From positions 1-38,942 of IMG/VR virus record IMGVR_UViG_3300032308_000091: 38,942 nucleotides of DNA, one strand, 5' to 3'. Both the position numbers and the translations under genes were made by a program. Source of the DNA: a virus. Under the pieces are notes generated by a model, which searched no databases, had not been told where the DNA came from, and worked only from the letters and a program-made list of their open reading frames with translations. Positions 2,835 to 38,942 of this stretch are shown here, in pieces (within the stretch, counting starts at the first letter, position 1; every line of letters begins with the position of its first letter).

Positions 2835-2843
2835 GGAGAACAA

Positions 2844-3032: not shown

Positions 3033-3036
3033 ATAA

Positions 3037-4023: not shown

Positions 4024-4032
4024 TAGATCCAA

Positions 4033-4089
4033 GCATTGGGGTGGTCAGGTTGATTGCGAGTGCCTTCCCGCGATCCCGCACCCCAATGC
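4033..4089 (+). other. Two-tier stem-loop between tail-tube and chaperone genes
   Basis: The lower stem is a perfect 11 bp: GCATTGGGGTG (4033-4043) with CACCCCAATGC (4079-4089). The upper stem is GATTGCG (4052-4058) with CGCGATC (4069-4075), 7 bp with one wobble and a 10-nt loop. No T-run follows. It fills most of the 113-nt gap, which otherwise holds only the ribosome-binding site of the next gene. It could lower downstream expression relative to the tail tube, protect the upstream mRNA, or act as a weak terminator. Confidence 0.6.
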
Positions 4090-4136
4090 CCTATCTAGTA
4101 TGATTTCAGGAAGGCAAACAAACATGGAGGCAGGAA

Positions 4137-4493
4137 ATGGCAAAAAAAGTAACATTACCTTCTGGCGCAACAGTCAACTTCAAAGATCCTAACGCACTGC
4201 GCGTTAAGGATCGCAAGCGCGTTATGCGCGTGACAGATGAGGCTGAGGGCGGGGATCTATCTAAGGCTATGGCGCTGACAGATGCGTTATTGGCAATGCT
4301 GATTGAGGACTGGTCATTTGATTTGCTGATCCCGTCAGTTAAGGTAGACACACTGGGCGAACTCACAATGGAAGATTACGACTTTCTTGTTGAAGAAACA
4401 AAGGAAGCGCAAAAGTCACTGTTCCCAAAGTTGGGTAAAACAGATGAGACTGAGGCAGACCCAAAAGCCCTTACCGACAACTTGAACGCTTAA
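4137..4493 (+). CDS. Tail assembly chaperone, short form (gpG-like)
   Basis: This 118-aa protein lies between tail tube and tape measure, the fixed place of tail assembly chaperones. It begins MAKKVTLPSGATVNFKDPNAL and has a helical middle (LTDALLAMLIEDWSFDLLIP) and an acidic C-terminus. These proteins coat the tape measure and recruit tail-tube subunits. The ribosome-binding site is GGAGGCAGGAA. Near the end lies a canonical slippery heptamer, and an open frame without a start codon continues downstream; this identifies the gene more firmly than sequence alone. Confidence 0.82.
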   Translation: MAKKVTLPSGATVNFKDPNALRVKDRKRVMRVTDEAEGGDLSKAMALTDALLAMLIEDWSFDLLIPSVKVDTLGELTMEDYDFLVEETKEAQKSLFPKLGKTDETEADPKALTDNLNA

Positions 4494-4687
4494 AGTGGAT
4501 TGTCAAGGGTGGACAAAGGCACGATGACTTTGTTTATCCTGATGAGCAGTGGTACTACTTTCAATTTGCGGATCGGTTTGGTTGGACACCAGATCAAGTA
4601 GATGAGTTACCTGCTGGTACGGCTGATTGGCTCATTTCAATCGCTGCAATAGTAGAGAGCGCAAAAGCAGAAAGGGCAAGTGAGTAA
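4137..4687 (+). CDS. Tail assembly chaperone, frameshifted long form (gpG-T-like)
   Basis: A -1 frameshift at CCCAAAA (4460-4466) fuses the first 110 codons of the short form to a frame that runs to TAA at 4685-4687, giving about 183 aa. The extension reads ...LERLKWIVKGGQRHDDFVYP...FGWTPDQVDELPAGTADWLISIAAIVESAKAE. The sequence WTPDQVDELP is typical of the T-type chaperone domain. The downstream frame has no start codon or ribosome-binding site of its own, so it is only reachable by frameshifting. It ends on TAATG, coupled to the next gene. Confidence 0.82.
4460..4466 (+). promoter_or_regulatory. Programmed -1 ribosomal frameshift site
   Basis: C CCA AAA read in the zero frame fits X_XXY_YYZ with X=C, Y=A. 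It lies 25 nt before the zero-frame stop. After slippage the next codon is AGC, and the -1 frame stays open for 73 codons. This is the conserved tail-chaperone frameshift of siphoviruses; the efficiency cannot be read from the sequence. Confidence 0.85.
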
Positions 4688-5121
4688 TGGGTGCAGTAGT
4701 CATACGCAATCTTGCTGACGTGCTTGCGGGCTTAGAGGTTCAAGAGGACAGATTAGAGAACGCTGCACAAACTGCAATTGCCACTGCGGGTTTTGCGATC
4801 CAGCGCCAAGCGCAAATCAACGCCAACACAGGCACTCACAAAAGAGGCACACCACGTATCTCAGGGAGTGGACCTGGACCAAACGTAGTCACAGGCGCTT
4901 TGCGCAGATCTATACGCACTGATGTTAAATACGGATTTGGCAACTACGTTGCGGTTGTTGGCGCAAGCACCGAGTACGCAAGGGCAGTTGAATTAGGCTC
5001 ACCAAAATGGAAGAGTGGAGTAAAATACCCTTACCTAACGCCTGCTGCTATTCAACTGATCATGAACGGATCATTGAATAGGATCTTCACAGCAGCATTT
5101 CTTAAAGCAGTGAAGGGATAG
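4687..5121 (+). CDS. HK97 gp10-like minor head-tail/tail component
   Basis: The 144-aa product has the pattern of the HK97 gp10 family. An N-terminal helix (LAGLEVQEDRLENAAQTAIATAGFAIQRQAQ) is followed by VTGALRRSIRTDV, a beta segment (YVAVVGASTEYARAVELG), YPYLTPA and a C-terminal helix. Family members usually sit at the head-tail interface, earlier in the gene order. Here the gene lies between chaperones and tape measure, a less common but known position. The start overlaps the chaperone stop. Confidence 0.7.
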   Translation: MGAVVIRNLADVLAGLEVQEDRLENAAQTAIATAGFAIQRQAQINANTGTHKRGTPRISGSGPGPNVVTGALRRSIRTDVKYGFGNYVAVVGASTEYARAVELGSPKWKSGVKYPYLTPAAIQLIMNGSLNRIFTAAFLKAVKG

Positions 5122-5122
5122 C

Positions 5123-8011
5123 ATGAGCAACGCAATCCCGCCAATTATGGTGCAAATCGCCGCAGACGTATCTCAACTGAAGGCTGGTTTGGCTCAGGCT
5201 CAATCAAGCATCAAGGGCATGGATAGCACTGTTGCTACCGCCAATACTGGTATGCAAAACATGATTAGTTCTGCAAAGAAAATGGCAGCAACAGTCGGTG
5301 TTGCGTTTGCTGCAACTCAGGTTGTTCAATTTGGTAAAGATGTAATCATGGCTGCTTCAAGCATGGCTGAGTCTGTATCAAAAGTTAATGTTGTGTTTGG
5401 AGAAAACGCAGCAAGCGTAATGGAGTTTGGCGAAAAGTCTGCCAGTGCGTTAGGTATCGGATCTCAAAAAGCGTTAGAGGCAGCAGGAACATACGGCAAT
5501 CTATTTCAAGCGCTGGGTGTGGGACGACCTGCCGCAACAGAGATGTCTACAAGCCTGGTTCAACTAGCAGCAGACCTTGCATCATTTAACAACACATCTA
5601 TTGACGACGCGTTAAACGCATTGCGCTCAGGTTTGTCGGGCGAGACTGAGCCATTGAAACGATTTGGCGTGGCACTCAATGAAGTGACCTTGAAGAACAA
5701 AGCAATGGCTATGGGCTTTGGTGAAATCAAGGGTGTCATGGATCCAGCGATCAAGGCACAAGTTACTTATGCGTTGGTTATGGAACAGACTTCACTGGCG
5801 CAAGGCGACTACGCGCGAACTGCTGACGGCACTGCAAACACAATGAAATCTTTGGCAGCAGAGTTTGAAAACGCCAAGGTGGCTATTGGCGAGATCCTTA
5901 TGCCAGCGTTCAAGGCAATCCTTGCAGTGTTGAAATTGCTTGTGCCAGTTATTACGGCAATCACAAAATACTTCAAGGACAATGCAGACGCAATCAAAAT
6001 GCTTGCAATACTTGTTGCCGCTGGAACCGCAGCATTTCTAGTGTACAAAGGCGTAATGATTGCCACAGGTATAGTGACAGCAGTTTATACATCAATTGTC
6101 AAGGCGCAAGCAGCAGGTTTTACCATTGCTCAGTTAGCAGCATTCAACCTCAAAGTTGCTATCTTCTTACTCAACAATGCGATGCGAGCCAACCCTATTG
6201 GCTTGATCGTTACTGCGCTTGCTTTGCTTGCAGCAGGCTTTGTTTACGCTTGGAAAAAGTCTGAGACGTTCAGAAGCATTGTCATTAAAGGCGTTCAGAT
6301 GATCTTGGACGGGTTCTCCAAACTGGTTTCAGGTATTGGTAAATTTGCTGGATTGATCTCCAAAGTTCCAGGCATGGGCTGGGCAAAAGGAATTGCTGAC
6401 GGGGCGCAAAGCGCAGCAGACAAGATCGCAATCACAAGCAAAAACCTTTCTGACCTCAAATCAAACTTCAAAGGCATGGGCAACGTATCCATGACCACTG
6501 GCAGTGCTGGCGTGACTGGCGGTGCAACCACTAGTGCTACAACCACCACTACGACAAATGCTGCTGATGCCAAAAAGAAGGCTGAAGAAATTAAAAAAAC
6601 CTTGAAAGATGTTGCAAAAGTCTACAAGGACATGAACAAAGTCATTGCAGACTCACAAGAGAAGGTTGCTGAGGCGACCAAGAGACGCGATGAAGCAACG
6701 GCTGAAGCAAACAAGCGATACAGCGAGTCAGTGGCAAAATCCAAAAAACAATACGACGAGTCTATTGAGTCAGCAGATAAGGCATTGCTTGAACGTACAG
6801 CAAAGGCGTACGAACGCAACAAAGAGCAGTTAGACAACGCCAACAAAGAGTACGCCAAGCGCACAAAAGATCTTGAACAAAAACTGCAAGATAGTCTGAC
6901 CGACCTACGTGCAAAGGCTGCTGACAAGGCTGCTGATCTAACCAAGAAGGCTGCTGACAAACAACAAGACATTATTCAAAAGTCAGTAGATCGTCTGCGC
7001 AGTGCGTTTGCGTCCAAAACTGGATTTAACATTGCTGAGGCGTTTGGCGGGGGCAAATCAACAGAAGCCTTATTGTCGGATCTCAAAGCAAAGTTGAACG
7101 CAGCAAAGAACCTTGCCGAAAACGCAGCATTTCTGCAAGCCAATGGTTTCTCACAGACTTTCATTGAGCAAGTGGTGTCTGCTGGTCCAGAGGTAGGTAA
7201 CTCACTTGCTGAGTCAATTCTTAACTCATCTCCAGAGTCCATTGCAGAATTAAAAGCAACCTTTAATGACATGGAGAACACGTCTAACTACGGGCTGGAC
7301 GCGTTAGCCAAGTCAATGAACACTGGCGCAAATCTAGCAACACAAGAATTGCGCGATGCGTACAACCAAGTGGCAATAGATCTTCAGACATCTATTGCTG
7401 AGATCAATGAAGATCTAACCAAGGCGCTGGCTGAGGCAAACTCAGATTACAGCGACGCAATGGCTGAGGCAAAAACTAACCGAGATGAAAGATTTGCTGA
7501 AGCAGCAAAAGATCTTAAAGATGCGTTGGCTGAAGCAGACAAAGATTACAAAGAGTCTGTGGCTGAGGCAAAAAAGACTCTTGCTGAGGCGTTGGCTGAT
7601 GCTTCAAAGACTCTCACCGAGACTCTTGCTGACGTGCAGAAAACTTACAATGAGGCGCTAGATCGCATTGCCAAAGACACCCAAGAGCGCATTGACGATC
7701 TGAAAGAAAAGTTAAAAGAGTTAGCAGCAACCCTGACCGAGTTAGGCGCAAAGCAGGCTGCAATCAACGCATTAAAAAATGCGCCTGTTTACACGCCTGT
7801 CTTGCCCGCACCAGCACCTTTCACGCCAAGCGTCAATACAAATACCATTGCAGGGATCAACGCTGCGTCAGGTTTCAACCTCACGCAAAACATCTCTTAC
7901 CCAACAGCCAGCGCAACCGAGATCTCAGCGCAGACCCTTGCCGCAATTAAATTTGGCACATCAGGCGGTTATACTCCAAGTTACAAAACAGTGGGATCAA
8001 GGGATAGATAA
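5123..8011 (+). CDS. Tape measure protein
   Basis: At 962 aa this is the longest gene. It sets tail length and is ejected with the DNA. The N-terminus (VSQLKAGLAQAQSSIKGMDSTVATANTGM) is the usual tape-measure start. The middle (about 270-380) has hydrophobic segments (AIKMLAILVAAGTAAFLVYKG; NPIGLIVTALALLAAGFVYA) that are probable membrane-insertion helices. The rest is long Ala/Lys/Glu coiled coil with degenerate 11- and 7-residue periodicity, for example around 765-880. At about 0.15 nm per residue the tail would be roughly 140 nm. No peptidase or lysozyme domain is evident. Confidence 0.93.
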   Translation: MSNAIPPIMVQIAADVSQLKAGLAQAQSSIKGMDSTVATANTGMQNMISSAKKMAATVGVAFAATQVVQFGKDVIMAASSMAESVSKVNVVFGENAASVMEFGEKSASALGIGSQKALEAAGTYGNLFQALGVGRPAATEMSTSLVQLAADLASFNNTSIDDALNALRSGLSGETEPLKRFGVALNEVTLKNKAMAMGFGEIKGVMDPAIKAQVTYALVMEQTSLAQGDYARTADGTANTMKSLAAEFENAKVAIGEILMPAFKAILAVLKLLVPVITAITKYFKDNADAIKMLAILVAAGTAAFLVYKGVMIATGIVTAVYTSIVKAQAAGFTIAQLAAFNLKVAIFLLNNAMRANPIGLIVTALALLAAGFVYAWKKSETFRSIVIKGVQMILDGFSKLVSGIGKFAGLISKVPGMGWAKGIADGAQSAADKIAITSKNLSDLKSNFKGMGNVSMTTGSAGVTGGATTSATTTTTTNAADAKKKAEEIKKTLKDVAKVYKDMNKVIADSQEKVAEATKRRDEATAEANKRYSESVAKSKKQYDESIESADKALLERTAKAYERNKEQLDNANKEYAKRTKDLEQKLQDSLTDLRAKAADKAADLTKKAADKQQDIIQKSVDRLRSAFASKTGFNIAEAFGGGKSTEALLSDLKAKLNAAKNLAENAAFLQANGFSQTFIEQVVSAGPEVGNSLAESILNSSPESIAELKATFNDMENTSNYGLDALAKSMNTGANLATQELRDAYNQVAIDLQTSIAEINEDLTKALAEANSDYSDAMAEAKTNRDERFAEAAKDLKDALAEADKDYKESVAEAKKTLAEALADASKTLTETLADVQKTYNEALDRIAKDTQERIDDLKEKLKELAATLTELGAKQAAINALKNAPVYTPVLPAPAPFTPSVNTNTIAGINAASGFNLTQNISYPTASATEISAQTLAAIKFGTSGGYTPSYKTVGSRDR

Positions 8012-8865
8012 TGCCTGTTATCACGAATAGTTATTCATTTTCGTTCAATGGTTTGACCTTTGGTGGCGCTGGATCTCCCTATCAGATCTTGTCTGTGGAC
8101 GGCTTAGAAGGTCTGCCTGGGATTAGAAATCAAGACGACAATCGTGGATACGCTGACGGAATGTTCTCAGGGCGCGACTTTCTGGGTGGTCGCACAATTT
8201 CAATCACTTTTCAAACCTTTGGCGCGGGTGCAACCTCAGCGCAGACCAACTTCAACACAATTCAAGCCAAATTGCTGCCTCAAACTTCAGGCACAACACC
8301 GCTTTACTTTATCTTGCCACCTTCAGGGGAACAGTTTGTCAATGCACGTGTTCGAGTTTTGCGCACGTCGGTAGATCCAAATTACACCTACGGCATGATT
8401 ACATCTCAGGTTGAGTTTTTTTGCCCTGATCCAAATTATTATGACTCAACGCTGCAAACTGCTGCAATGGTCGTGTCTGATCCGCCAGGGCGCACCTACA
8501 ACCGCACATACAATATTGTCTACGGCTCAGGATCTTATGCAACTACTACAAATGTAGTAAATTCGGGTTGGGCTACGACTTACCCAACAATCACGCTTAA
8601 TGGACCAATCACCAACCCTACACTGGGTAATGTCACAACAGGTCAATACCTTAATTTGTCAGGCACTTTTGCCAACACGGACAGTCTGGTTATTGATTTA
8701 TACAATAAACTGATTACGCTCAACGGGGTGTCTGCTCGTAATTTACTTTCAAGTGGAACTTGGTTTAATGCACCGCCAGGCACTTCGCAGTATTATTTGA
8801 CAGGATCTTTTACCACTGTTGGGCTCACTGCGGCAACTGTCGCGTGGTACAACGCATACATTTAG
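8011..8865 (+). CDS. Distal tail protein (Dit-like)
   Basis: The 284-aa product follows the tape measure, where Dit proteins are found; these form the ring that joins tail tube and baseplate. The N-terminal half has the beta-barrel pattern (FSFNGLTFGG...SVDGLEGLPGIRNQDDNRGYADGMFSGRDFLGGRTISITF), with the glycine-rich GRDFLGGR typical of actinophage minor tail proteins. The segment QVEFFCPDPNYYDS ends the N-terminal domain, and a galectin-like C-terminal domain follows. The start overlaps the tape-measure stop. Confidence 0.78.
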   Translation: MPVITNSYSFSFNGLTFGGAGSPYQILSVDGLEGLPGIRNQDDNRGYADGMFSGRDFLGGRTISITFQTFGAGATSAQTNFNTIQAKLLPQTSGTTPLYFILPPSGEQFVNARVRVLRTSVDPNYTYGMITSQVEFFCPDPNYYDSTLQTAAMVVSDPPGRTYNRTYNIVYGSGSYATTTNVVNSGWATTYPTITLNGPITNPTLGNVTTGQYLNLSGTFANTDSLVIDLYNKLITLNGVSARNLLSSGTWFNAPPGTSQYYLTGSFTTVGLTAATVAWYNAYI

Positions 8866-8874
8866 GAGAGAGCA

Positions 8875-10026
8875 ATGGCATTACGCACACCACCGAGTTG
8901 GTTACAAAACGGATCCCACCCTGCCGAAAATGACCGCCTATCCATGCAAAGTATTATTGCCACAACAGGCATTATTGGCACATCTTCTTTGGCTGTCACT
9001 CAACCTGCGGCACCAGGACTGGCTGTTCAAGTTGCAGCAGGCTGGGGCGCTATTGTCGGTAATTATCAAGCGAATATGGGCGTGTACCAATTCTACAATG
9101 ACGCTGCAACGCAGTTATCTGTGACTACTGCCGATCCCACGAACCCTAGAATTGACCGCGTTGTTGTTACTGTCAATGACTCTTATTACACAGGCGCAAC
9201 CAACAACGTGACTTTTACTGTTGTTGCAGGTACGCCTGCTGGATCTCCAACTGCGCCAGCCACGCCAACAAACTCAATTTCACTTGCGACTATCGCTGTT
9301 GCTGCTGGTGCAACTTCAATTCTCAATGCAAACATTACCGACACTCGCGTTAGTGTGACTACAAATTTGCCTGTTGGAGATCTAACTGAAGTTGCTGCTG
9401 GAACAGGAATTACTGTCACAAGCGGCACTGGTCCAATCCCAAACGTTGCGCTAACAACGCCAGTTGCAGTAGCAAACGGCGGCACAGGTATTACATCATT
9501 TGGATCAGGCGTGGCAACGTTTCTTGGCACACCAACCTCAGCCAATCTTGCTGCTGCTTTAACTGATGAAACTGGATCAGGCGCAAATGTATTTGGAACT
9601 GCGCCAACAATTTCGGGCGGTATTTTGACTGACTCAATAGTTAAAGGCACAGAGGAAGATGTCAATGTTGTTGCTTCAGCCGCAACAGGCACAATCAACT
9701 TTGATGTATCTACTGCTTCAGTTTGGTATTACACCTCAAACGCTACCGCAAATCACACTCTCAACTTTAGGTACAGTTCAAGCGTATCTTTGAACACTGC
9801 TTTACCAGTGGGAGATGCGATCACGCTTGTATGGCTCAATACAAATGGTGCAACCGCGTACTATCCAAATGTAATTCAAATTGACGGCACTACTGTTACC
9901 CCAAAGGTGCCAGCAGCAATTGCGGCAGGAAATGCGACAGCCATTGATGCCTATGTATTCACAATCATCAAGACAGCAGCGACACCGACCTACACAGTTC
10001 TTGAGACACAGACGAAGTTTGCATAA
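8875..10026 (+). CDS. Minor tail protein / tail fibre with baseplate-attachment N-terminus
   Basis: The product is 383 aa. Residues 1-150 (TPPSWLQNGSHPAENDRLSMQSI, then NPRIDRVVVTVNDSYYTG) match the conserved N-terminal attachment domain of actinophage tail-tip proteins. Residues 165-240 carry fibre-type repeats (GTGITVTSGTGPIPNVALTT; VANGGTGITSFGSG). The C-terminal part is a beta-rich head. It probably takes part in receptor binding. A GGAGAG ribosome-binding site precedes it, and it is coupled to the next gene through TAATG. Confidence 0.75.
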   Translation: MALRTPPSWLQNGSHPAENDRLSMQSIIATTGIIGTSSLAVTQPAAPGLAVQVAAGWGAIVGNYQANMGVYQFYNDAATQLSVTTADPTNPRIDRVVVTVNDSYYTGATNNVTFTVVAGTPAGSPTAPATPTNSISLATIAVAAGATSILNANITDTRVSVTTNLPVGDLTEVAAGTGITVTSGTGPIPNVALTTPVAVANGGTGITSFGSGVATFLGTPTSANLAAALTDETGSGANVFGTAPTISGGILTDSIVKGTEEDVNVVASAATGTINFDVSTASVWYYTSNATANHTLNFRYSSSVSLNTALPVGDAITLVWLNTNGATAYYPNVIQIDGTTVTPKVPAAIAAGNATAIDAYVFTIIKTAATPTYTVLETQTKFA

Positions 10027-10613
10027 TGTCGCCAATTCTTCAAACACTCGCAAATTCATCTGCATACGGCTATCGCTCTTTTGGTGCAGCGGCAGGGCCA
10101 GCATTTGAGTCTATTGCTACTGCTACGAGTGCGGGTTCTTCTGCAACGCTAACTTTTAGTTCTATCCCAAGCACCTATTCATCATTGCAAATTAGATTTA
10201 TGTCAAAACCTGCTTCAAGCGGTGGTGCAATTAGGATGCAAATGAACGGAATTACTACTAACACTTATTGGTATCACTATCTAATTGGAGTAGGTACTGC
10301 CGCTGCTGCTGGAAGTTCAGGTGGAGCAACTAATGGAATTTTCGTAATGGATAATCTTACTGCACCAGTAACTGACATTTTTGGTGTTGGCATTATTGAC
10401 ATACACGACTATGCATCAACTACAAAGGTAAAAACTATTTGTGCTTTAAGTGGAACAAATGATAATACAAGTGGCAATGGTGATGAAATACAGTTATGGT
10501 CAGGTAAAAATGGAGCGACTACAGCAATTAGTAGTATTACCTTTGCAAACACTTCTGGGCAAAACTTTGCATCTGGAACAACCTTTGCACTATATGGAAT
10601 TAAGGGAGCGTAA
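10026..10613 (+). CDS. Tail-tip beta-sandwich protein, tandem paralogue A
   Basis: This is the first of three consecutive related genes (195 aa). Shared features with B and C: FESIATATSAGSSATLTFSS-type opening, SIPSTYSSLQIRF, a W-x-G/N-x(3)-AI-x-SI motif near the end, and the terminal motif ALYGIKGA. About 25 extra N-terminal residues (SPILQTLANSSAYGYRSFGAAAG) set it apart and may anchor it to the upstream fibre. The pattern suggests a jelly-roll type head domain. A receptor-binding or fibre-tip role is inferred from composition and location. Confidence 0.7.
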   Translation: MSPILQTLANSSAYGYRSFGAAAGPAFESIATATSAGSSATLTFSSIPSTYSSLQIRFMSKPASSGGAIRMQMNGITTNTYWYHYLIGVGTAAAAGSSGGATNGIFVMDNLTAPVTDIFGVGIIDIHDYASTTKVKTICALSGTNDNTSGNGDEIQLWSGKNGATTAISSITFANTSGQNFASGTTFALYGIKGA

Positions 10614-11138
10614 ATGCCAGCAACATACGAGCCAATCGCTACCACTACTTTAGGTACAGCAGCAGCCTCAATTACACTTTCTAGTATTCCTGCCACTTAT
10701 ACAGATTTGAGATTGCTATTTGTTGGATACTCAACTTTTACTTCTCTCAATACTGGTGCAATAAGACTGCGATTTAATTCAGATACTGGTGCAAATTACA
10801 GCGATACATACCTTTATGGTAATGGTGCGTCCGCGACTAGCAGTCTTGACACTAGTGCGACTTCAATTTATGCAGGTGCAATACCTGACAATGTTGCAGG
10901 AACAAGCATTGTAGGTATCATGACAGCAGATGTATTTTCTTACGCTGGCTCAACTTACAAGACTGTTTTGACTACCAGCTCATCTGATCTTAATACTGGA
11001 AACACATTGAGCACATTAACTAGAGCGGTAGGTCTATGGCGTAACACCGCTGCCATTACTTCTATAACAATTCTTGCGGGAGATCCAAACTTTAACATCG
11101 GCACAACCGCTACTCTGTATGGGATAAAAAATGCCTAG
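10614..11138 (+). CDS. Tail-tip beta-sandwich protein, tandem paralogue B
   Basis: The product is 174 aa, with the same architecture as A and C: YEPIATTTLGTAAASITLSS, SIPATYTDLRLLF, GLWRNTAAITSITI and the ending TLYGIKNA. It is closest to C over the N-terminal strands. The start follows AAGGGAG at the end of A, with no intergenic gap. Its end overlaps the start of C by 8 nt. It has lost the N-terminal extension of A, so B and C may be independent tip subunits or may form a heteromer. Confidence 0.7.
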   Translation: MPATYEPIATTTLGTAAASITLSSIPATYTDLRLLFVGYSTFTSLNTGAIRLRFNSDTGANYSDTYLYGNGASATSSLDTSATSIYAGAIPDNVAGTSIVGIMTADVFSYAGSTYKTVLTTSSSDLNTGNTLSTLTRAVGLWRNTAAITSITILAGDPNFNIGTTATLYGIKNA

Positions 11139-11649
11139 TACCTACACACTCATTTCATCCAATGTACTTAGCAGTTCTGCTGCATCTGTTACCTTCTCTG
11201 CTATTCCGAGTACTTATACAGATTTGGTGTTGAGGATTAGCGCAAGAGCAGATACCACAGGCCCTAAAAACTTGGGCTTTACTTTCAATACAGATACAAC
11301 GACTAACTATTCTCAAACCTATGTGCAAGGTGATGGAAGTGCTGCATCATCAGGTAGATTTGCCACGCAAGCAACTAACCGCGTTTTGAACGCAATCACT
11401 GGAACAGATTACACAAGTAATACTTATGGCAGTGTTGAGATTTATATACCAGATTATTTATCATCTGCAAATAAGCCTAACTCTGCTTTTGGCACTACAG
11501 AAAACAATTCAACAAGTTCAACAATTTCAGCAACCGCTAATCTATGGCGCGGCACAACTGCAATTAACCAAATTGTGTTGTTTTTAGGTGGCGGCGGAAA
11601 CTTCATTTCTACTTCATCTTTCTATCTATACGGCATCAAAAACTCATAA
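11131..11649 (+). CDS. Tail-tip beta-sandwich protein, tandem paralogue C
   Basis: The product is 172 aa: YTLISSNVLSSSAASVTFSA, AIPSTYTDLVLRI, NLWRGTTAINQIVLF and the ending YLYGIKNS. It shares N- and C-terminal motifs with A and B while the middle (about 45-130) diverges strongly, the pattern expected of surface loops under receptor or immune selection. The start lies inside the end of B. Confidence 0.7.
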   Translation: MPSTYTLISSNVLSSSAASVTFSAIPSTYTDLVLRISARADTTGPKNLGFTFNTDTTTNYSQTYVQGDGSAASSGRFATQATNRVLNAITGTDYTSNTYGSVEIYIPDYLSSANKPNSAFGTTENNSTSSTISATANLWRGTTAINQIVLFLGGGGNFISTSSFYLYGIKNS

Positions 11650-11658
11650 GGAGCAACA

Positions 11659-11892
11659 ATGACAACACCAACAGCAATCGAAATCAACTGCGAAACAGGC
11701 GAAGTCACAGAGCGCCCATTGACAGCCGAAGAGATCGCAGCCAATGAAGCGGCACAGGCAAAGGCAGAAGCAAACCGCCTAGCGGCAGAAGTAGAAGCAG
11801 AAGCGCTGGCTACATTGAAAGCAAGCGCCAAAGCAAAGTTAATTGCTGGCAAGCCACTTACGGCAGAAGAAGCGAACCTGCTGGTAATCTAG
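11659..11892 (+). CDS. Small coiled-coil protein of the tail region
   Basis: This 77-aa product follows an AAGGAG ribosome-binding site. It begins TPTAIEINCETGEVTERPLTAEEIAANEAAQAKAEA and continues as an Ala/Glu/Lys-rich helix. Such short proteins (often annotated only as phage tail-associated) are frequent next to fibre genes. The 'TGEVTERPLTAEE' opening is the recognisable part. A chaperone or small structural role is possible; no function can be assigned. Confidence 0.65.
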   Translation: MTTPTAIEINCETGEVTERPLTAEEIAANEAAQAKAEANRLAAEVEAEALATLKASAKAKLIAGKPLTAEEANLLVI

Positions 11893-11896
11893 CGGT

Positions 11897-13018
11897 ATGA
11901 CAACAACATACCGATACCTGTTTGCGGATCTACTTACCAATGTAATCATTGCTGAGTTACCGCTAACAGGCGTGTCTTTTGGATCTCAACTTAACCAAGC
12001 AGGCACGTTTCAAGGTCGCATACTTTTGTCGGGAATTGACACAGTAGGTTTTAACATAACCAATGCAACAATTCCTGGTAAATCTGCAGTGTACGTAGAT
12101 CGTGACGGGGTGTTGGTGTGGGGTGGAATTATTTGGTCACGCAGTTACCAATCTGCGGGGCAGGTGTTGTCGTTGCAGGCTAGAGAGTTTGAGTCATACT
12201 TTGAGAAACGTAGAATTACCTCAGATCAGATCTTTAACAACGTAGATCAACTGACAATCACGCAAAACTTGATTTCATTGGCTCAGGGTGTGGCTTACGG
12301 CAACATTGGGGTTCAAGTGGGTGTTGAGACATCTGGTGTGTTGGTGTCCAGGACTTACTATAATTACGAAAAGAAAACTTATTTTTCAGCATTGCAGGAT
12401 CTTTCACGCGCTGAAAACGGCTTTGACTTTAACATTGACGTAAGTTACGGCGGATCTGGTACGCCAAACAAAACGCTCAATTTGGGCTACCCGCGATTAG
12501 GCACTGTTTACTCAGCCACAGATCCTGAAGCAATATTGTTTGAGTTTCCCGCTGGCAACGTAGTGGAGTACGAATACCCAGAGGACGGGTCACTTGTGGC
12601 AAACACTTTGTACGCGCTGGGCGCTGGATCTAATGAAGGTAAATTGGAAGCCACATTTCAAGACACAACATTTTTGACAGACGGCTGGGCGTTGCTTGAA
12701 GAACAGGCTAACTATTCAGACGTAACTGATGCGACCTATCTTGCTCAGTTGGCTGAAGGTCAAGTCAATGCAGTGGCGTACCCGCCTACTGTTATCAGAG
12801 TTGTTGTGCCAGCCTACGTTAATCCAGTGTACGGATCTTATGCAATAGGCGACGACGCAAGATTACGTATCACAGATGAGCGTTTTCCTGCAACGGGCGT
12901 GGGCACGGCGGTTCAAGCAGGATTAGATGAGGTCTACCGCATTGTTGGCGTTGAGGTTCAACCTGGTGAAGATGGACCAGAGCGCGTAACATTGACCCTA
13001 ACTCAAACTACGAACTGA
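11897..13018 (+). CDS. Tail hub-like minor tail protein (Gp37/Tal-type)
   Basis: The product is 373 aa. The sequence YRYLFADLLTNVIIAELPLTGVSFGSQLNQAGTF, GILVWGG-type strand (DRDGVLVWGGIIW) and LSLQAREFESYFEKRRI follow the pattern of actinophage hub proteins, which form the beta-barrel ring under the distal tail protein. The C-terminus (DDARLRITDERFPA and GEDGPERVTLTL) is also typical. It lies after the fibre genes rather than directly after Dit, so the tip genes interrupt the usual order. No peptidase motif is seen. Confidence 0.72.
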   Translation: MTTTYRYLFADLLTNVIIAELPLTGVSFGSQLNQAGTFQGRILLSGIDTVGFNITNATIPGKSAVYVDRDGVLVWGGIIWSRSYQSAGQVLSLQAREFESYFEKRRITSDQIFNNVDQLTITQNLISLAQGVAYGNIGVQVGVETSGVLVSRTYYNYEKKTYFSALQDLSRAENGFDFNIDVSYGGSGTPNKTLNLGYPRLGTVYSATDPEAILFEFPAGNVVEYEYPEDGSLVANTLYALGAGSNEGKLEATFQDTTFLTDGWALLEEQANYSDVTDATYLAQLAEGQVNAVAYPPTVIRVVVPAYVNPVYGSYAIGDDARLRITDERFPATGVGTAVQAGLDEVYRIVGVEVQPGEDGPERVTLTLTQTTN

Positions 13019-26660: not shown

Positions 26661-27318
26661 GGCACAAGTATCAGAGTTGAACGAATACGCTAAAAACCCG
26701 CGCAAGGGCAACGTGGATCTTATTGCTGAGTCATTGTCTAAGTACGGACAATACAAGCCAATCACGGTGAACAAAACCAATAACGAAATCCTTGCAGGCA
26801 ATCACACCTACCGAGCAGCAAAGCAATTAGGCTGGGACACGATTGACATTGTTTACGTAGACGTAGACAACGTGACAGCAGCAAAGATTGTTGCAATAGA
26901 CAACAGAGCATCAGACATGGGTGAATACGACAACAAGGTGCTGGCTGAATTGCTAGATAGCATGAACAACCTTGAAGGATCTGGGTACACGTTTGACGAG
27001 TACGATGACCTGAAGGCTGAGATCCAGGAAGCAGATTTGCCAAGCCTAGAACACAAAACACTTTTTGCCGCACTCGAAATCGGAGAAAGCGGTCAATCAG
27101 GGACGCAATTCATACCTACGCTGAGCGATTACGCAGAGCGATACACCAACAAAGCAACACGTATGCTCATGCTGGACTATCACAACGACATCTACGTTTG
27201 GATTGTTGAAGCGTTGATTGAGTATCGCACGGCAAACGGATTGGTAAGTAATGGAGAAGCAATACTGAAGTTGGTTGAGGAAGCAGTGGAGAGGAAATGC
27301 CCGTATGAACTTATCTGA
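26641..27318 (+). CDS. ParB/Srx-fold protein (ParB-like nuclease domain)
   Basis: The 225-aa product (an ATG two codons later is equally possible) has NPRKGNVDLIAESLSKYGQYKPITVNKTNNEILAGNHTYRAAKQLGW, the ParB N-terminal signature with GNHTYRA, then IAIDNRASDMGEYD, the usual continuation of this phage family. The ParB fold binds CTP or ATP and appears in nucleases and in sequence-loading proteins. ParB-domain genes are known companions of phage base-modification genes. Here the stop overlaps the dioxygenase start by 14 nt, so the two are translationally linked. The C-terminal part (about 130-225) is not recognised. Confidence 0.82.
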   Translation: MPMEIIKAQVSELNEYAKNPRKGNVDLIAESLSKYGQYKPITVNKTNNEILAGNHTYRAAKQLGWDTIDIVYVDVDNVTAAKIVAIDNRASDMGEYDNKVLAELLDSMNNLEGSGYTFDEYDDLKAEIQEADLPSLEHKTLFAALEIGESGQSGTQFIPTLSDYAERYTNKATRMLMLDYHNDIYVWIVEALIEYRTANGLVSNGEAILKLVEEAVERKCPYELI

Positions 27319-28186
27319 GTTACCCGTACACAAGATCAAGCGCGTTATGTCGTCTGAAGATGCAACCGCACTGGTAGGTACTGTTGTTCCTGATTACGAA
27401 CCAACCTGCACTGAAGCAGGGATTTGGGTTGATGAGGATACTGACGAGATTGTTTTTGTCTACTTTCCAATGGAAGAAGAAGTAGAAATGCTGCGCGCGT
27501 CTGTATTAAAGATTAACTACGGCACAACAATTCGCCAATCAACAGGCTTGAAGAACCAATCACGTACATTTGGCATGGCACCACGCAAGATCTTTCAGAA
27601 GCGCGAGAGTTGCAGAGCAACCTCATTGGCGCATGAACAACCAAATGAACACGCAGTGTTGATTGCGTTTGCGGAGAAGTTTGCGCAGATGTACAAAGAG
27701 TTTGCGCCTGAATTGTATGAGGCAGATCGCAAAGCATTGGCTGACAACAACGTGGCTGACGAGTGGAGAATGACAGATGACGCGTTGTGGACATCTGGAG
27801 TAGTCAATAAAGCCTCAACATTGCCTTATCATCGTGACGGGTTCAACTTTGCCACTTGGTCTGCAATGCCTGTGATCCGCAGAAAGATGAAGGGCGGATA
27901 CCTGACGCTACCTGAATACAATTTCACTTGTTCTTGTCGTGACGGCTGGGTAACTTTTTTTGCAGGATACAAATACGTTCACGGCGTAACACCTATGACA
28001 CCCAGCGCTGAGGACTCATACCGCTATTCAATCGTGTATTACGCACTACGCGGCATGAAAGATTGTTTTACATTTGCAGTTGAAACAGCCAAAGCGCGCG
28101 AAAGCAGGACAGCACGTGAGGACAACATGGCAAGAGCGCTGAAAGGCGAGATACCTATGCCTGTTTTGGGTGGCAAGGGTAAGTGA
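27305..28186 (+). CDS. TET/JBP-like 2-oxoglutarate/Fe(II) DNA dioxygenase
   Basis: The 293-aa product starts at the ATG after GGAGAGG; a TTG 30 nt upstream is less likely. It has the double-stranded beta-helix motif set: LPYHRDGFN (His176, Asp178), GGYLTLPEY, GWVTFFAGYKYVHGV (His226) and SYRYSIVYYAL (Arg240, binding 2-oxoglutarate). NKASTLPYHRD, GGxLxLPEY and SRTFG are typical of phage TET/JBP proteins. These enzymes hydroxylate the 5-methyl group of thymine or 5-methylcytosine in DNA. With no cytosine methyltransferase in the genome and thymidine-pathway enzymes downstream, thymine is the likelier substrate. It overlaps the next gene (GTGA). Confidence 0.85.
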   Translation: MNLSELPVHKIKRVMSSEDATALVGTVVPDYEPTCTEAGIWVDEDTDEIVFVYFPMEEEVEMLRASVLKINYGTTIRQSTGLKNQSRTFGMAPRKIFQKRESCRATSLAHEQPNEHAVLIAFAEKFAQMYKEFAPELYEADRKALADNNVADEWRMTDDALWTSGVVNKASTLPYHRDGFNFATWSAMPVIRRKMKGGYLTLPEYNFTCSCRDGWVTFFAGYKYVHGVTPMTPSAEDSYRYSIVYYALRGMKDCFTFAVETAKARESRTAREDNMARALKGEIPMPVLGGKGK

Positions 28187-29067
28187 GCCTTTGGGCTGAT
28201 TACGCATTGTTCCACGAAGCGCAGACTCAATCGCGTGACATGGATCCAACGTACCCAGTGTTGGAGTGGTTTGCTGACTCAATGGATCGCGAAAGCGGTT
28301 TGTGGCTGACATTTTTGTTTGTAGGTTATTACCACATGGGATCAGCGCTCAAAGCCTTCAGCCTGTATCCAACACCGACTGTTCCAGATGAAGCAACCTT
28401 GAAATTGCCTATTGCTCAACCACGCAGATCGCACAGAGCAACATTACGATTTGCACAACACCTTGACTCACTGTGCGCCAAAGTAGATCAACACGGCGGA
28501 TTGGGTGCATGGTTGGACGCTGCAACCACCTCACAAGATCCGATTGAGAATTGGAAAACGCTCAACAATGAATTGACGACAGTGTTTGGCAACGGGCGCT
28601 GGGCGGCATACAAAACAGCAGAGATCTTGATGAAGTCTCACCAATTCAATCTTGCAGCGCCAGACATGGGTAACGCTAATTCAAGTGGACCACGCAAGGG
28701 ACTGGGGCTGTTCTTTCCTGGTCTGCCGCAAGGTAATTCACCCGCCGAGATTGCGCGATTAGATGAGTTGAGCCTAAAGGTAGTTGAACATCTCACGGGC
28801 AAAACCTCACAAGTGAGCATTGAGACGGCTGAAACCTCATTGTGCGATTTCTACGCAATGAACAAAGGGCGCTACTATGTCGGCATTGACATTGATGAAA
28901 TGCAAGAACAGTTGTTGCGTGTCCCGTCGGATCTAACTGACATGGCGTTCAAGGCACGATACGAAACACTGCCTCATGCCTATCTTGGCGAACTAAACGG
29001 CTGGGAAGGCATTGACAAAAACCGCAAATCAATTTACCGCGATACAAAACAGATTGCCTTGCGATGA
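28183..29067 (+). CDS. Amino acid:DNA transferase (aGPT-PPlase family)
   Basis: The 294-aa product starts at GTG after GGCAAGG. GNGRWAAYKTAEIL (136-149), a helical DNA-glycosylase-like core, and SLCDFYAMNKGRYYVGIDID (219-238) match the alpha-glutamyl/putrescinyl-thymine pyrophosphorylase family. Known members displace pyrophosphate from 5-pyrophosphomethyl-dU in DNA with an amino acid (glycine in phage M6, serine in ViI). The amino acid used here cannot be read from sequence. It is flanked by the dioxygenase and a flavoenzyme, with ATGA/GTGA overlaps on both sides, so the enzymes are made together. Confidence 0.85.
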   Translation: MSLWADYALFHEAQTQSRDMDPTYPVLEWFADSMDRESGLWLTFLFVGYYHMGSALKAFSLYPTPTVPDEATLKLPIAQPRRSHRATLRFAQHLDSLCAKVDQHGGLGAWLDAATTSQDPIENWKTLNNELTTVFGNGRWAAYKTAEILMKSHQFNLAAPDMGNANSSGPRKGLGLFFPGLPQGNSPAEIARLDELSLKVVEHLTGKTSQVSIETAETSLCDFYAMNKGRYYVGIDIDEMQEQLLRVPSDLTDMAFKARYETLPHAYLGELNGWEGIDKNRKSIYRDTKQIALR

Positions 29068-29876
29068 AACTCATTGTCATAGGCGCTGGCATTGCAGGAT
29101 CTTCAACAACACGCATTGCACGCAGTAAAGGCTGGGACGTGACGTTGATTGACCACGCACCAGAGCAGTCTGCGTCCAGATCTGCGTTGGCAACAATACG
29201 TCCAACGTGGTTTGACAAAACTGAGCGTGATGACCTTGAAAGATCATGGGACTGGTACAGTCAGTGGGGTGCAGCAGGATCAAGAGAAGCCTACGTATCA
29301 AATTGGCGCGACAGATCCGTGAAGAAACAAAACGATTGGTGGCTGGTAGATCCGATTACGCCATTGGTTGCACCAGATACGATTGAGCGCGTAGTAGGTA
29401 TTTATCCAAACTACGTCACAACTGACTCAGGACAAATCATTGAGGCTGACGCTATCTTGAATTGCACAGGCGCATACGGGGCGGATCTCGCGCATGACGT
29501 GACGATGTTTGCGGGTGTCACCTGGATCTCGCGCAACGCTGAATTAGACTATTCACCTTATCGTGTCCATCATTTAAGACCATACAAATCACTCTCAGCA
29601 GCACAAATCAACGGCGTGACGCGTGTTGGATCTTCAATTGCTGCAACGGCTGACAAGGCAATAGATGACGCAAAAGAAATGCTGATGACGGCGATTGCAT
29701 TGGGTATTGTCAAGCAAGGCGATTGGGAGATGTCGTTAGGCTGGAGAGCAAAGGGTAAGGGCGGCATACCGATTTATCCAGAGTTAGGTGAGCGCAATGC
29801 GTATTTCTCAGGGTTAGCCAGAAGTGGATACGGGTTGTCTCCAGCAATTGCAGAAAAGTGGATTGACAGTTTATAG
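29064..29876 (+). CDS. FAD-dependent DAO-fold enzyme (hypermodification lyase-like)
   Basis: The 270-aa product has the Rossmann motif MKLIVIGAGIAGSSTTRIAR (GxGxxG at 7-12) with Asp30 at the end of strand 2, ILNCTGAYGADL and a C-terminal GLARSGYGLSPAIAEKWI, as in D-amino-acid/glycine oxidases. It is about 100 aa shorter than most of these, which fits DNA-linked substrates. In phage M6 a flavin-dependent lyase converts the glycine adduct to 5-aminomethyl-dU, and this gene occupies the matching place. A different oxidation of the added amino acid is possible. Confidence 0.8.
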   Translation: MKLIVIGAGIAGSSTTRIARSKGWDVTLIDHAPEQSASRSALATIRPTWFDKTERDDLERSWDWYSQWGAAGSREAYVSNWRDRSVKKQNDWWLVDPITPLVAPDTIERVVGIYPNYVTTDSGQIIEADAILNCTGAYGADLAHDVTMFAGVTWISRNAELDYSPYRVHHLRPYKSLSAAQINGVTRVGSSIAATADKAIDDAKEMLMTAIALGIVKQGDWEMSLGWRAKGKGGIPIYPELGERNAYFSGLARSGYGLSPAIAEKWIDSL

Positions 29877-29900
29877 TTACTAGATTACAAAGGGGGCAAA

Positions 29901-30431
29901 ATGATTATCTACGTGATAGGCGCGCCAGGATCGGGCAAAACAACTCTCACTGAAGCATTTACACAAGATTGGAAAGACCACGCCAAACATGAACAACCAA
30001 TCAAATTCAGAACCCACCATACCCCGCATGGCGACGCACTCTCACTTGGCTGGCTCAGACCAGCATTTGGCGGAACAGACACGCTTGGCAATACGGCGAT
30101 ACTTGCGATTGAACCATGGCTACCTCAAATCGCCAAAGACTATTCAATCATCTATGGAGAAGGCGACAGACTAGCCAACACGCGTTTCTTTGATTTGTGC
30201 AAGGGCATTGGGCAGTTTCACTTGTTCTATCTCAACACTGATCCAGCGTTATGCGCTGAGCGTCGCGCACAAAGATCTTTATTGACAGGCAAGACACAAA
30301 ACCCTACTTGGGTCAAAGGCAGAGAGACTAAGCACCGCAACCTTGCAATGACTCACAAAGCCTTTGAGATCCCGTCAGGGCTAACACCTACCGCTGGCGC
30401 AGATCTCATGCGTAATGTAATCTTTTCCTGA
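29901..30431 (+). CDS. P-loop 5-hydroxymethyl-dU DNA kinase
   Basis: The 176-aa product has Walker A GAPGSGKTT (7-15), FGGTDTLGN (56-63), IIYGEGDRLANTRFF (83-97) and WVKGRETKHRNL (137-148), the last three being signatures of the phage hydroxymethyluracil DNA kinase family. It phosphorylates (and probably pyrophosphorylates) the 5-hydroxymethyl group in DNA, giving the leaving group for the amino acid transferase. The usual extra helical domain is absent, so this is the P-loop domain only. AAGGGGG precedes the start, and the small terminase gene follows. Confidence 0.86.
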   Translation: MIIYVIGAPGSGKTTLTEAFTQDWKDHAKHEQPIKFRTHHTPHGDALSLGWLRPAFGGTDTLGNTAILAIEPWLPQIAKDYSIIYGEGDRLANTRFFDLCKGIGQFHLFYLNTDPALCAERRAQRSLLTGKTQNPTWVKGRETKHRNLAMTHKAFEIPSGLTPTAGADLMRNVIFS

Positions 30432-30447
30432 TGAATAGGAAACGTAC

Positions 30448-30930
30448 GTGAGAAAAACACCTTCACCAGAACAGATAGACAAAGAGAAGCGGGTGCTTGA
30501 ATTAAAGCGCTCAGGGGCTACTTGGGACGCTATTGCTGAGGTTGTGGGCTATGCAAACGGATCAGGCGCGTTCAAGGCATACCAAAGAGCAATGGTGCGC
30601 ACGTTGCAGCAACCAGCAACTGAACTCAGAGATGCTGAGATAGATCGCCTAGACCGACTACAAAGGGCGTATTGGTTTGAGGCGATTGGAGACAGGGATA
30701 ACCCGCCTGTTCACAAATCAGCAGAGATTGTTTTGAAGATTATCGACAGGCGCGCAAAGTTACTTGGGCTAGACGCACCAACCAAGATCCAAGCAGAGGT
30801 GGTTTCGTATGACGCAAGCGGAATTGAAGCAGACATTGAACGCATCGCCTATAACCTCAGAGGAATGGATCAGGGCAGCACGTTGGCGCTGGAAGCAGGA
30901 ACAAGCACGGAAGGAACAATTACCACCTGA
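30448..30930 (+). CDS. terS: Terminase small subunit
   Basis: The 160-aa product starts at GTG after AGGAAA. SPEQIDKEKRVLELKRSGATWDAIAEVVGYANGSGAFKAYQRAM is a helix-turn-helix for pac/cos recognition, followed by LRDAEIDRLDRLQRAYWFEAIG and HKSAEIVLKIIDRRAKLLGLDAP, the typical oligomerisation helices. The last 122 nt overlap the large subunit in another frame, an unusually long overlap. Confidence 0.82.
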   Translation: MRKTPSPEQIDKEKRVLELKRSGATWDAIAEVVGYANGSGAFKAYQRAMVRTLQQPATELRDAEIDRLDRLQRAYWFEAIGDRDNPPVHKSAEIVLKIIDRRAKLLGLDAPTKIQAEVVSYDASGIEADIERIAYNLRGMDQGSTLALEAGTSTEGTITT

Positions 30931-32179
30931 AGGTGATTGGAACATTTGGTTGTACATGGCTGGACGCGGTGCAGGTAAGACACGCACGGCAGCAGAGTGG
31001 CTTGCTTGGGAAGCAGTAAGCCAACCCAACACGCGCTGGGCGATAGTTGCACCAACATACGGTGACGCAAGAGATACCTGCGTTGAGGGTGAGTCAGGGG
31101 TGCTGACTATCTTGCGACGATACAAAGCGCTGAAGGATTGGAACAGATCACTTGGCGAGATCCTTTTGACCAACGGATCGCAAATCAAACTCTTCTCAGC
31201 AGACAAGCCTGATCGTTTTCGTGGTCCACAGCATCACGGCGCATGGTGTGACGAGTTAGCAGCGTACAGATACTCAGATGCTTGGGATCAGTTGCAGTTT
31301 GGTATGCGATTGGGAGATAAACCGCGCATTGTTGTCACCACGACACCTAGACCTACCGCGCTGATTAGATTACTAGCAGGGCGCAATGACGGATCAGTAA
31401 CAATCACTCGTGGATCTACTTTTGACAATGCTGCCAACCTTGCACCTTCAGCCTTACTTGAATTGGAAGCCAGATACGCGGGAACACGCTTGGGACGGCA
31501 AGAGTTGTTTGGGGAGATCCTGGACGACGTTGAGGGCGCATTGTGGACTAGGGGACTTATTGAGCGCAACAGGTTGCAGAAAGCACCAGCAATGTCACGG
31601 ATAGTTGTGTCTATCGATCCAGCAGTGACCAATACCAAAGATAGTGACGAGACAGGCATCATTGTTCTAGGATCTGACGCGCAAGGGCATGGATACGTGT
31701 TGGGTGATTACTCTTTCAAGGGATCTCCACTTGATTGGGCAAGCAAGGCTGTGTCGGTATTTGATGAGTGGAAAGCAGACTCAATCCTGGTTGAAGTCAA
31801 TCAGGGCGGTGACATGGTAAGTGCGGTGTTGAAGCAGATCCGATTAGGTCTGCCAATCCGAGAAGTGCGAGCGCACGTGGGTAAAAGATTACGCGCTGAA
31901 CCCGTTGCAGCAATGTATGAGCAGGGACGTATTCACCACATTGGAGAGTTTGCCAAATTAGAGGATCAGATGACTGTGTGGACACCTGACGACCCAGACT
32001 CACCAGATCGAATTGACGCAATGGTGCAGGGCTTTGCAGACCTGTTGGGGACGCAGAACATTGCTAACTACTTCAACGCCATTGCTAACTTTTGCCCAAA
32101 CTGCAACCTGCCTAACCCTAAATCTTCAGCAATGTGTTTGAAGTGTGGAAGCGCTATCATTACACCAGCCGTAGGTTAA
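30809..32179 (+). CDS. terL: Terminase large subunit with C-terminal zinc ribbon
   Basis: The 456-aa product starts at an ATG with AGAGGTGG upstream. Walker A is GRGAGKT (52-58), Walker B ends in Asp148-Glu149 (GAWCDELAAYRY), and the RNase H-fold nuclease has Asp270 (VSIDPA), Glu329 (ILVEVNQGGD) and Asp403 (DRIDAMV). It pumps and cuts DNA during packaging. Residues 429-446 (CPNCNLPNPKSSAMCLKCG) form a zinc ribbon not present in most large terminases. The modification operon lies directly upstream, so DNA may be modified before packaging. Confidence 0.93.
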   Translation: MTQAELKQTLNASPITSEEWIRAARWRWKQEQARKEQLPPEGDWNIWLYMAGRGAGKTRTAAEWLAWEAVSQPNTRWAIVAPTYGDARDTCVEGESGVLTILRRYKALKDWNRSLGEILLTNGSQIKLFSADKPDRFRGPQHHGAWCDELAAYRYSDAWDQLQFGMRLGDKPRIVVTTTPRPTALIRLLAGRNDGSVTITRGSTFDNAANLAPSALLELEARYAGTRLGRQELFGEILDDVEGALWTRGLIERNRLQKAPAMSRIVVSIDPAVTNTKDSDETGIIVLGSDAQGHGYVLGDYSFKGSPLDWASKAVSVFDEWKADSILVEVNQGGDMVSAVLKQIRLGLPIREVRAHVGKRLRAEPVAAMYEQGRIHHIGEFAKLEDQMTVWTPDDPDSPDRIDAMVQGFADLLGTQNIANYFNAIANFCPNCNLPNPKSSAMCLKCGSAIITPAVG

Positions 32180-38180: not shown

Positions 38181-38942
38181 ATGGCTGAAATGCCTAGAGC
38201 AAAAGATCTGTTTGACGGATCTTCTCCTGTTGAGGCTGCTGAACGTATGGATCAATACACTGCCGAATTAGGCAAGTCATTGAACAACGCTTCATCTGTC
38301 CCAGGACAAGCACCAGCACCAGACGCGACATCACAGTTAGAAATGCTTGCAGCAAGCAAGTCACTCTCACCTGATGCAGCAGCAGGACTTCAGAATGCAT
38401 TGGCAGCACAACGCCTAGCAATGCAGGATATTCAGAAGGACATCACACTTACATCTCCACTCTCAACCTCATTCGCAGCGTTTGACTTGGAAGCACCTTC
38501 AAAGTTGCTTACACCACGTCCAACACCTTTGCGTAATCGTATTCCACGTAAGAAGGGCGTAGGTACTTCACACCGCGTCAAGCGTATTCTTGGATACACA
38601 GGTACAGGAACTGGTGGAGTTGGAAACACATGGCCAGGTATCACAGAAAGCACAACAACAACATTTGGCGCGATCAACTTTGAGCGTGGTCCAAAGATTT
38701 CTTATGCTGCTGACGATTTGATCCTGCCTTACAACTCATACTCACTATCTGATGCAGTGTCATTTGACGCTAATTTCTCAGGTCTTGGGTATCAGGATCT
38801 ACGCCAGTTATCATCAACCTCAACTCTATACGCAACAATGCTTATGGAAGAGCGCATGATGCTTATGGCGCGCGGTACAGCATCAGGTTACTCAGGCGCA
38901 CTTGCTCAGGTAACTAGCGTTGTAACTGCTTCTCCAGTTGCA
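38181..38942 (+). CDS. Major capsid protein, N-terminal part (gene continues at base 1)
   Basis: The ATG follows GAAAGGAA, and the frame is open to the last base of the window (254 codons), continuing at base 1 in the same phase. The N-terminal 70 residues (VPGQAPAPDATSQLEMLAASKSLSPDAAAGLQNALAAQRLAMQDIQKD) are helical and may be a scaffold-like delta domain removed on maturation. The following ITLTSPLSTSFAAFDLEAPSKLLTPRPTPLRNRIPRKKGVG looks like the N-arm of an HK97-fold capsid protein. It lies directly after the prohead protease, as usual. Confidence 0.88.
   Translation, partial: MAEMPRAKDLFDGSSPVEAAERMDQYTAELGKSLNNASSVPGQAPAPDATSQLEMLAASKSLSPDAAAGLQNALAAQRLAMQDIQKDITLTSPLSTSFAAFDLEAPSKLLTPRPTPLRNRIPRKKGVGTSHRVKRILGYTGTGTGGVGNTWPGITESTTTTFGAINFERGPKISYAADDLILPYNSYSLSDAVSFDANFSGLGYQDLRQLSSTSTLYATMLMEERMMLMARGTASGYSGALAQVTSVVTASPVA
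38820..38942. repeat. Exact 123-bp terminal overlap, copy 2
   Basis: This copy is identical to bases 1-123. Joining the ends here restores one uninterrupted capsid gene, which strongly supports a circular assembly. Confidence 0.95.

Follow-up and report, generated by a model that had tools for sequence, protein, structure and literature searches.

To our knowledge, every phage thymidine hypermodification that has been studied by experiment begins with 5-hydroxymethyl-dUTP that is produced in the nucleotide pool. In the Pseudomonas phages M6 and PaMx11 a thymidylate-synthase-type enzyme serves as the dUMP hydroxymethylase, and it is established that in phages of the M6 and PaMx11 types the kinase, the transferase and the lyase act in this order (partly PMC6449724). 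The glycinylthymidine/5-aminomethyl-dU pathway of PaMx11 consists of the transferase gp46, the flavin lyase gp47 and the kinase gp49 (compare Wen et al. 2024 NAR, cited in PMC11946847), and kinase and amino acid:DNA transferase chemistry on 5-hydroxymethyl-dU (5-hmdU) has been described for M6 and Salmonella phage ViI (PMC6449724). M6 and PaMx11 each encode a thymidylate-synthase-type enzyme and a DNA polymerase, and in PaMx11 the genes for an ADDT (amino acid:DNA transferase), a flavoenzyme, an acetyltransferase, a kinase, a helical protein and a thymidylate synthase are neighbours. The PaMx11 pathway is represented in the PDB by entries 8z2m, 8z2o and 8z79, and in line with their titles we take PaMx11 to make 5-hmdU derivatives. 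TET/JBP enzymes also occur within phage hypermodification clusters, where they are found together with C5-methyltransferases; the phage TETs characterised by Burke et al. (2021) reportedly oxidise 5mC. In the kinetoplastid JBP/base J system, a TET/JBP enzyme is proposed to hydroxylate thymine after replication, and a thymidine hypermodification system has already been proposed for Rhodococcus phage Tonitrus (PMC11955845).

The locus described here lies in a 38,942-nt stretch of viral DNA that was analysed as a whole (the window), and it shares features with each of these systems. It has the ADDT-flavoenzyme-kinase core in common with PaMx11, with a TET gene in place of the PaMx11 synthase gene, whereas PaMx11 additionally has a thymidylate-synthase-type precursor enzyme, its own DNA polymerase, an acetyltransferase and a helical partner of the kinase. 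The kinase and transferase chemistry would be shared with M6 and ViI, which, unlike the virus in the route proposed below, are believed to build 5-hmdUTP into their DNA as it is replicated; genes for PLP and radical SAM enzymes are present in the M6 cluster, in which a DAO was not seen, whereas the window has one. A TET/JBP gene within a hypermodification cluster likewise recalls the phage 5mC-TET systems, but the C5-methyltransferase that accompanies those systems is missing from the window. As for base J, neither a J-binding domain nor a glycosyltransferase was present among the Pfam matches of the operon, although apparent glycosyltransferases take the place of the amino cassette in some relatives of the window. 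Tonitrus shares ParB, TET, ADDT and kinase genes with the window; in Tonitrus they lie at the start of the genome, and their order is different.

A conserved five-gene operon beside the terminase genes

The window derives from a small actinobacterial virus and contains a candidate hypermodification gene set (Table 1). Its first and last 123 bases are identical, and a single PHROG profile, phrog_13692, spans gene pieces at both ends; the window is therefore most likely a complete genome, circular or circularly permuted, of 38,819 bp. Other genes encode exonucleases, a replication initiator, RusA, HNH and SSB proteins, and a DNA-level search against phages returned only short and weak matches.

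Table 1. Genes of the operon and the adjoining terminase genes, with positions in the window
Feature	Position	Strand	Basis
ParB-like protein, 225 aa	26641..27318	+	Pfam ParB_N 1.1e-7 (over cut-off); phrog_723 6e-49
TET/JBP 2OG-Fe(II) dioxygenase, 293 aa	27305..28186	+	Tet_JBP profile, catalytic residues, fold
Amino acid:DNA transferase (ADDT), 294 aa	28183..29067	+	ADDT profile
Short DAO-fold flavoenzyme, 270 aa	29064..29876	+	DAO profile, AF2 model
P-loop kinase, 176 aa	29901..30431	+	Ploopntkinase3 profile, GAPGSGKT Walker A
Small terminase-like protein	30448..30930	+	Adjoins TerL; phrog_645 1.4e-27; downstream boundary
Terminase large subunit (TerL)	30809..32179	+	Terminase_6N 8e-28, Terminase_6C

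A previous inspection of the letters and open reading frames (the sequence-only reading) had described an operon of four consecutive genes, from the dioxygenase to the kinase. All four open reading frames are intact, in the order and on the strand described; the TET, ADDT and DAO genes are joined by successive 4-nt overlaps, as had been read, and the kinase gene starts 24 nt past the DAO gene. The operon, however, begins one gene earlier than had been supposed: the ParB-like gene overlaps the TET gene by 14 nt and is the first of five genes that run into the terminase genes. As a guess, the ParB-like protein might have a part in targeting or tethering to DNA, and this constant partner is a candidate for bringing the kinase to DNA. 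The small terminase-like protein gave no match in the Pfam search, and its gene occupies the same position in relatives.

The relatives comprised isolate loci and related viral contigs that the ADDT and TET proteins had retrieved, and gene order was counted in loci with enough sequence. Of 76 loci, 75 have the ParB gene immediately upstream of TET; in 59 of 60, TerL comes after TET at a distance of no more than 4.8 kb. Median dN/dS between the window and its relatives was 0.067 for TET, 0.075 for ADDT, 0.15 for DAO and 0.13 for the kinase, and ranged from 0.06 to 0.15 across all five operon genes. Every part of the operon is thus under purifying selection, and the operon is real, conserved and well delimited, with an association of its genes beyond chance.

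Protein families and the predicted pathway

Profile searches assigned the four enzymes to Tet_JBP, ADDT, DAO and Ploopntkinase3, all above the Pfam cut-offs and in agreement with the sequence-only reading. Tet_JBP was the sole Pfam match of the first protein (46.1 bits against a cut-off of 34.9), which places it inside TET/JBP as had been expected, and the residues H176-R-D178, H226 and R240 are invariant among 103 homologues. In a Foldseek search of the PDB with its AlphaFold2 model (mean pLDDT 75), the 26 best matches were all of the TET family (CcTet, NgTet1, CMD1 and TET2), with Z scores of 15.8 to TET2 and 15.6 to NgTet1. The protein is therefore a TET/JBP dioxygenase, with a TET-type double-stranded beta-helix fold in the model. 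The label "queuine tRNA-ribosyltransferase", attached to phrog_6059 and to many GenBank records, is ruled out by the Pfam match, the catalytic residues and the TET/JBP fold.

The transferase matched ADDT (PF18724) with 67 bits (cut-off 26.2). A profile of the ADDT group found two solved transferases in the PDB, 25qc (6.5e-15) and 8z2m ("Glycinyltransferase"; 9.5e-8), and hhalign of the window ADDT with PaMx11 gp46 gave 96%; 13 residues are invariant even when the PaMx11 and M6 proteins are added. On these matches, the donor is predicted to be most likely glycine, which would be placed on phosphomethyl-dU.

The flavoenzyme matched DAO with 55.4 bits (cut-off 27.9). A single-sequence phmmer search of the PDB returned no match for this protein, whereas the profile and the model both did: hmmsearch with the profile reached PaMx11 gp47 at 6.6e-5, and the AF2 model (pLDDT 91) had the same protein (8z79, titled "5-N-alpha-glycinylthymidine FAD-dependent lyase") as its first-ranked Foldseek match in the PDB, with a Z score of 25.4 and 2.8 A over 259 residues. 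Structure prediction, which had been suggested as a check, thus led the two models to the TET family and to gp47, respectively. CmiS2, glycine oxidase and MnmC rank below gp47, but CmiS2 does so by only about 1.4 Z, and the fold ranking alone is therefore no proof of the reaction. Fourteen DAO residues remain invariant when PaMx11-type lyases (PaMx11, Epa5) are added. We propose that the flavoenzyme may be an N-alpha-glycinylthymidine lyase, a proposal that draws on both profile and model.

The kinase, which had been read as a hydroxymethyluracil kinase, is indeed a P-loop kinase, but it matched Ploopntkinase3 (PF18751; 83.6 bits against a cut-off of 27) and not the HMUDK profile (PF18748), which M6 gp54 matches. 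The helical partner HMUDK_hel (PF18723), present in M6 and PaMx11, is also absent from the window and from 22 other TET-bearing records. The profile of the window kinase aligned with PaMx11 gp49 in hhalign at 91.8% over 96 columns, and a homologue in Gordonia phage Wooper is annotated "DNA kinase, 5-hmU DNA kinase". Judged by these profiles, the window kinase falls in a sister family of HMUDK, and it is proposed to be a 5-hydroxymethyl-dU DNA kinase. The label "terminase small subunit" (phrog_800) for this protein was rejected; it is a P-loop kinase, and a separate gene adjoins TerL.

The gene content, gene order, conservation, family membership and fold matches, all direct observations, point to post-replicative thymine hypermodification by a TET-initiated route to aminomethylated thymine, a prediction to which we give a probability of about 0.77. 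In this route, the phage would be replicated by a polymerase that it apparently does not encode, yielding DNA with ordinary thymine, and the TET/JBP enzyme would make 5-hmdU from selected thymines by hydroxylation. Next, the P-loop kinase would phosphorylate the hydroxymethyl group to give phosphomethyl-dU, the ADDT would exchange the phosphate for an amino acid, most likely glycine, to give N-alpha-glycinylthymidine, and the flavoenzyme would remove glyoxylate to leave 5-aminomethyl-dU. The last compound is the predicted end product because no acetyltransferase was seen in the operon, and the likely purpose of the modification would be resistance to host restriction.

The alternative that survives best, although we consider it rather unlikely, is the same pathway with another amino acid or end product, in which the substrate of the flavoenzyme is not glycinylthymidine or the product stays an aminoacyl-thymine. 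The window ADDT and DAO each share only about 20% identity with their PaMx11 counterparts, so that amino-acid specificity could differ; just 14 invariant residues connect the DAO set with the PaMx11-type lyases, and some relatives have cassettes that lack DAO, or that include a PLP enzyme or an Asp/Arg hydroxylase. Against this, the fold that the DAO protein matches best is that of the glycinylthymidine lyase, above glycine oxidase and MnmC.

Thymine in finished DNA as the predicted substrate

The sequence-only reading had also suggested that the dioxygenase supplies 5-hmdU in place of a nucleotide-pool enzyme, and the gene inventory supports this suggestion. A ThyA-type thymidylate synthase was found in none of 61 TET-bearing records, whereas M6 and PaMx11 both have one, and ThyX was found in none of 22. 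The window itself has no ThyA-type synthase, no ThyX and no family A or B DNA polymerase (PolA/PolB), as would be needed for a pool route of the M6/ViI type; without PolA/PolB, use of a modified nucleotide pool is not expected. From this context and from the pocket residues considered below, the window TET is predicted to act on thymine in DNA.

It is improbable, by comparison, that the TET enzyme acts on 5mC supplied by the host or by a missed methyltransferase, with the kinase, transferase and flavoenzyme then decorating 5-hydroxymethylcytosine. Phage TETs characterised to date do act on 5mC (summarised in PMC12730594), and 6 of 61 related records contain a C5-methyltransferase, separated from the operon by a few kb or more; in two of these (L072 and L089) an ADDT+DAO operon is a few kb away. 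No C5-cytosine methyltransferase, however, was found in the window or in any of 10 complete isolate genomes, which leaves no phage-made 5mC for TET; given the six records, this argument is strong for the window and not absolute for the clade. The downstream enzymes are, moreover, homologous to those that act on hydroxymethyl-dU and glycinylthymidine. The pocket points weakly in the same direction: counted from the catalytic Arg, an invariant Leu among the 103 homologues takes the place of what we assume to be the base-contacting His of TET2/NgTet1. The residue five positions after the catalytic His, N181 in the window and Asp in some other phage TETs, gave no clear separation between thymine and 5mC specificity, as only 3 of 50 Asp-type TETs are accompanied by a C5-methyltransferase; TET2 presumably also has Asn at this position.

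That the enzymes modify RNA, such as tRNA uridines, is very improbable. MnmC, which converts cmnm5U to nm5U on tRNA, is among the structural matches of the flavoenzyme (Z 20.8), and the proposed last step of the operon mirrors this tRNA chemistry, but PaMx11 gp47 has the higher Z score, the operon abuts terminase genes in nearly all loci counted, and members of the TET, ADDT and 5-hmU kinase families modify DNA where they have been tested. A decayed or non-functional operon is the least probable of all, given the low dN/dS of each gene, the intact catalytic residues and the conserved order.

Relatives, exchanged cassettes and implications

The sequence-only reading knew of no characterised phage with this exact gene set. 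The TET-initiated variant is partly anticipated in the literature by the system proposed for Tonitrus (PMC11955845), and the set itself is already present in sequenced isolates. Mycobacterium phage Phelemich has the exact order ParB-TET-ADDT-DAO-kinase-TerL, Mycobacterium phage Reprobate has TET, ADDT and DAO matches at the same positions as Phelemich, and Microbacterium phages Kozie and MO526 have TET-ADDT-DAO-kinase-TerL. Gordonia phage Wooper and Tonitrus carry TET, ADDT, a kinase and another protein, which in Tonitrus (L027 3761-4642) is not matched by the DAO profile. Matches in sequenced bacteria were limited to two genomes. One is an Actinomycetota MAG contig; the other is a Corynebacterium contig that carries ParB-TET-ADDT-kinase-terminase genes and resembles a prophage.

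The TET clade of the window comprises more than 250 viral contigs and more than 80 phage records. In some relatives, the cassette between TET and the terminase consists of ADDT+DAO+kinase, ADDT+kinase, a longer ADDT+PLP-type enzyme+kinase, or the kinase alone; for ADDT+kinase cassettes without DAO, an aminoacyl-thymine product would be expected. Other relatives have glycosyltransferase-like proteins and no kinase between TET and the terminase. These proteins (308, 315-326 and 235-252 aa) were called by eye and have no Pfam match; the firmest glycosyl case is Arthrobacter phage Klevey, in which an annotated glycosyltransferase and a deacetylase follow TET. Changes of cassette were counted on a maximum-likelihood tree of 62 TET proteins and compared with shuffled labels. 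The cassette type changed at least 23 times (shuffled mean 38.9, minimum 32), and the distinction between amino and glycosyl types at least 6 times (shuffled mean 12.9, minimum 9). The changes are fewer than with shuffled labels, yet many, and the cassette label is therefore partly inherited and often exchanged: TET is constant across relatives, and the downstream cassette is swapped. It is, in our estimation, an even bet whether the TETs of this clade as a whole are thymine dioxygenases that produce 5-hmdU in finished DNA and feed a swappable aminating or glycosylating cassette.

If the post-replicative reading of the operon is right, the pathway starts from ordinary thymine already in DNA, and it would therefore be workable in a small phage without a polymerase of its own and could be site-selective. 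The operon would then represent a different entry into a known type of viral DNA armour; Mycobacterium smegmatis and Microbacterium are hosts of cultured phages that carry this set of genes. The operon is also relevant to whether bacterial viruses contain a relative of the thymine activity of kinetoplastid JBP (base J); if the reading of the clade also holds, a base-J-like pathway and a counterpart of kinetoplastid JBP would exist in actinobacterial phages.

Window record and database names

The window record is probably a complete genome, circular or permuted, since its 123-bp ends are identical (1-123 and 38820-38942). In GenBank phage records matching its TET dioxygenase (27305-28186), the label "queuine tRNA-ribosyltransferase" is a widespread mis-annotation, and matches to its kinase (29901-30431) are widely mislabelled "terminase small subunit" or "adenylate kinase"; PHROG labels are probably the source of these wrong names.

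Cassettes downstream of TET

In six relatives (L060, L062, L066, L069, L071 and L102), the kinase is absent and the TET-terminase interval encodes a 308-aa glycosyltransferase-like protein, possibly for base-J-like glycosylation. A 148-aa HAD-like protein usually accompanies it. Where an Asp/Arg beta-hydroxylase-like protein lies in the ADDT cassette, it might hydroxylate the amino acid once attached. Five loci (L032, L033, L034, L091 and L104) carry TET and the kinase alone, and searches of the Nigel, KayaCho and MementoMori genomes gave no ADDT match. The end product of such kinase-only loci might be phosphomethyl-dU, or else some other partner might be at work.

Features of the relatives compared with the window operon
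Locus	Feature	Coordinates	Remark
L204, Corynebacterium genome contig	ParB-TET-ADDT-kinase-terminase	7172-12037	
L062	Kinase-free cassette with the 308-aa protein	4765-6134	Glycosyltransferase by appearance; no Pfam match
L076; L090; L096; L087	Two further glycosyltransferase-like cassette types, 3' of TET	6507-7454; 1526-2506; 5607-6587; 3820-5285	
L119, Arthrobacter phage Klevey	TET, then glycosyltransferase and glucosaminyl deacetylase	3917-6442	Glycosyltransferase annotated as such
L029 (LilMcDreamy); L106	ADDT cassette including an Asp/Arg beta-hydroxylase-like protein	2656-3759; 5178-6263	
L116, Caulobacter phage Cr30	Distant TET close to strong ADDT	7329-8657 and 10355-11584	ADDT 179 bits

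Wider occurrence

The Corynebacterium locus is apparently a prophage. In Cr30, where no C5-methyltransferase was found, TET and ADDT possibly represent a pairing of independent origin.
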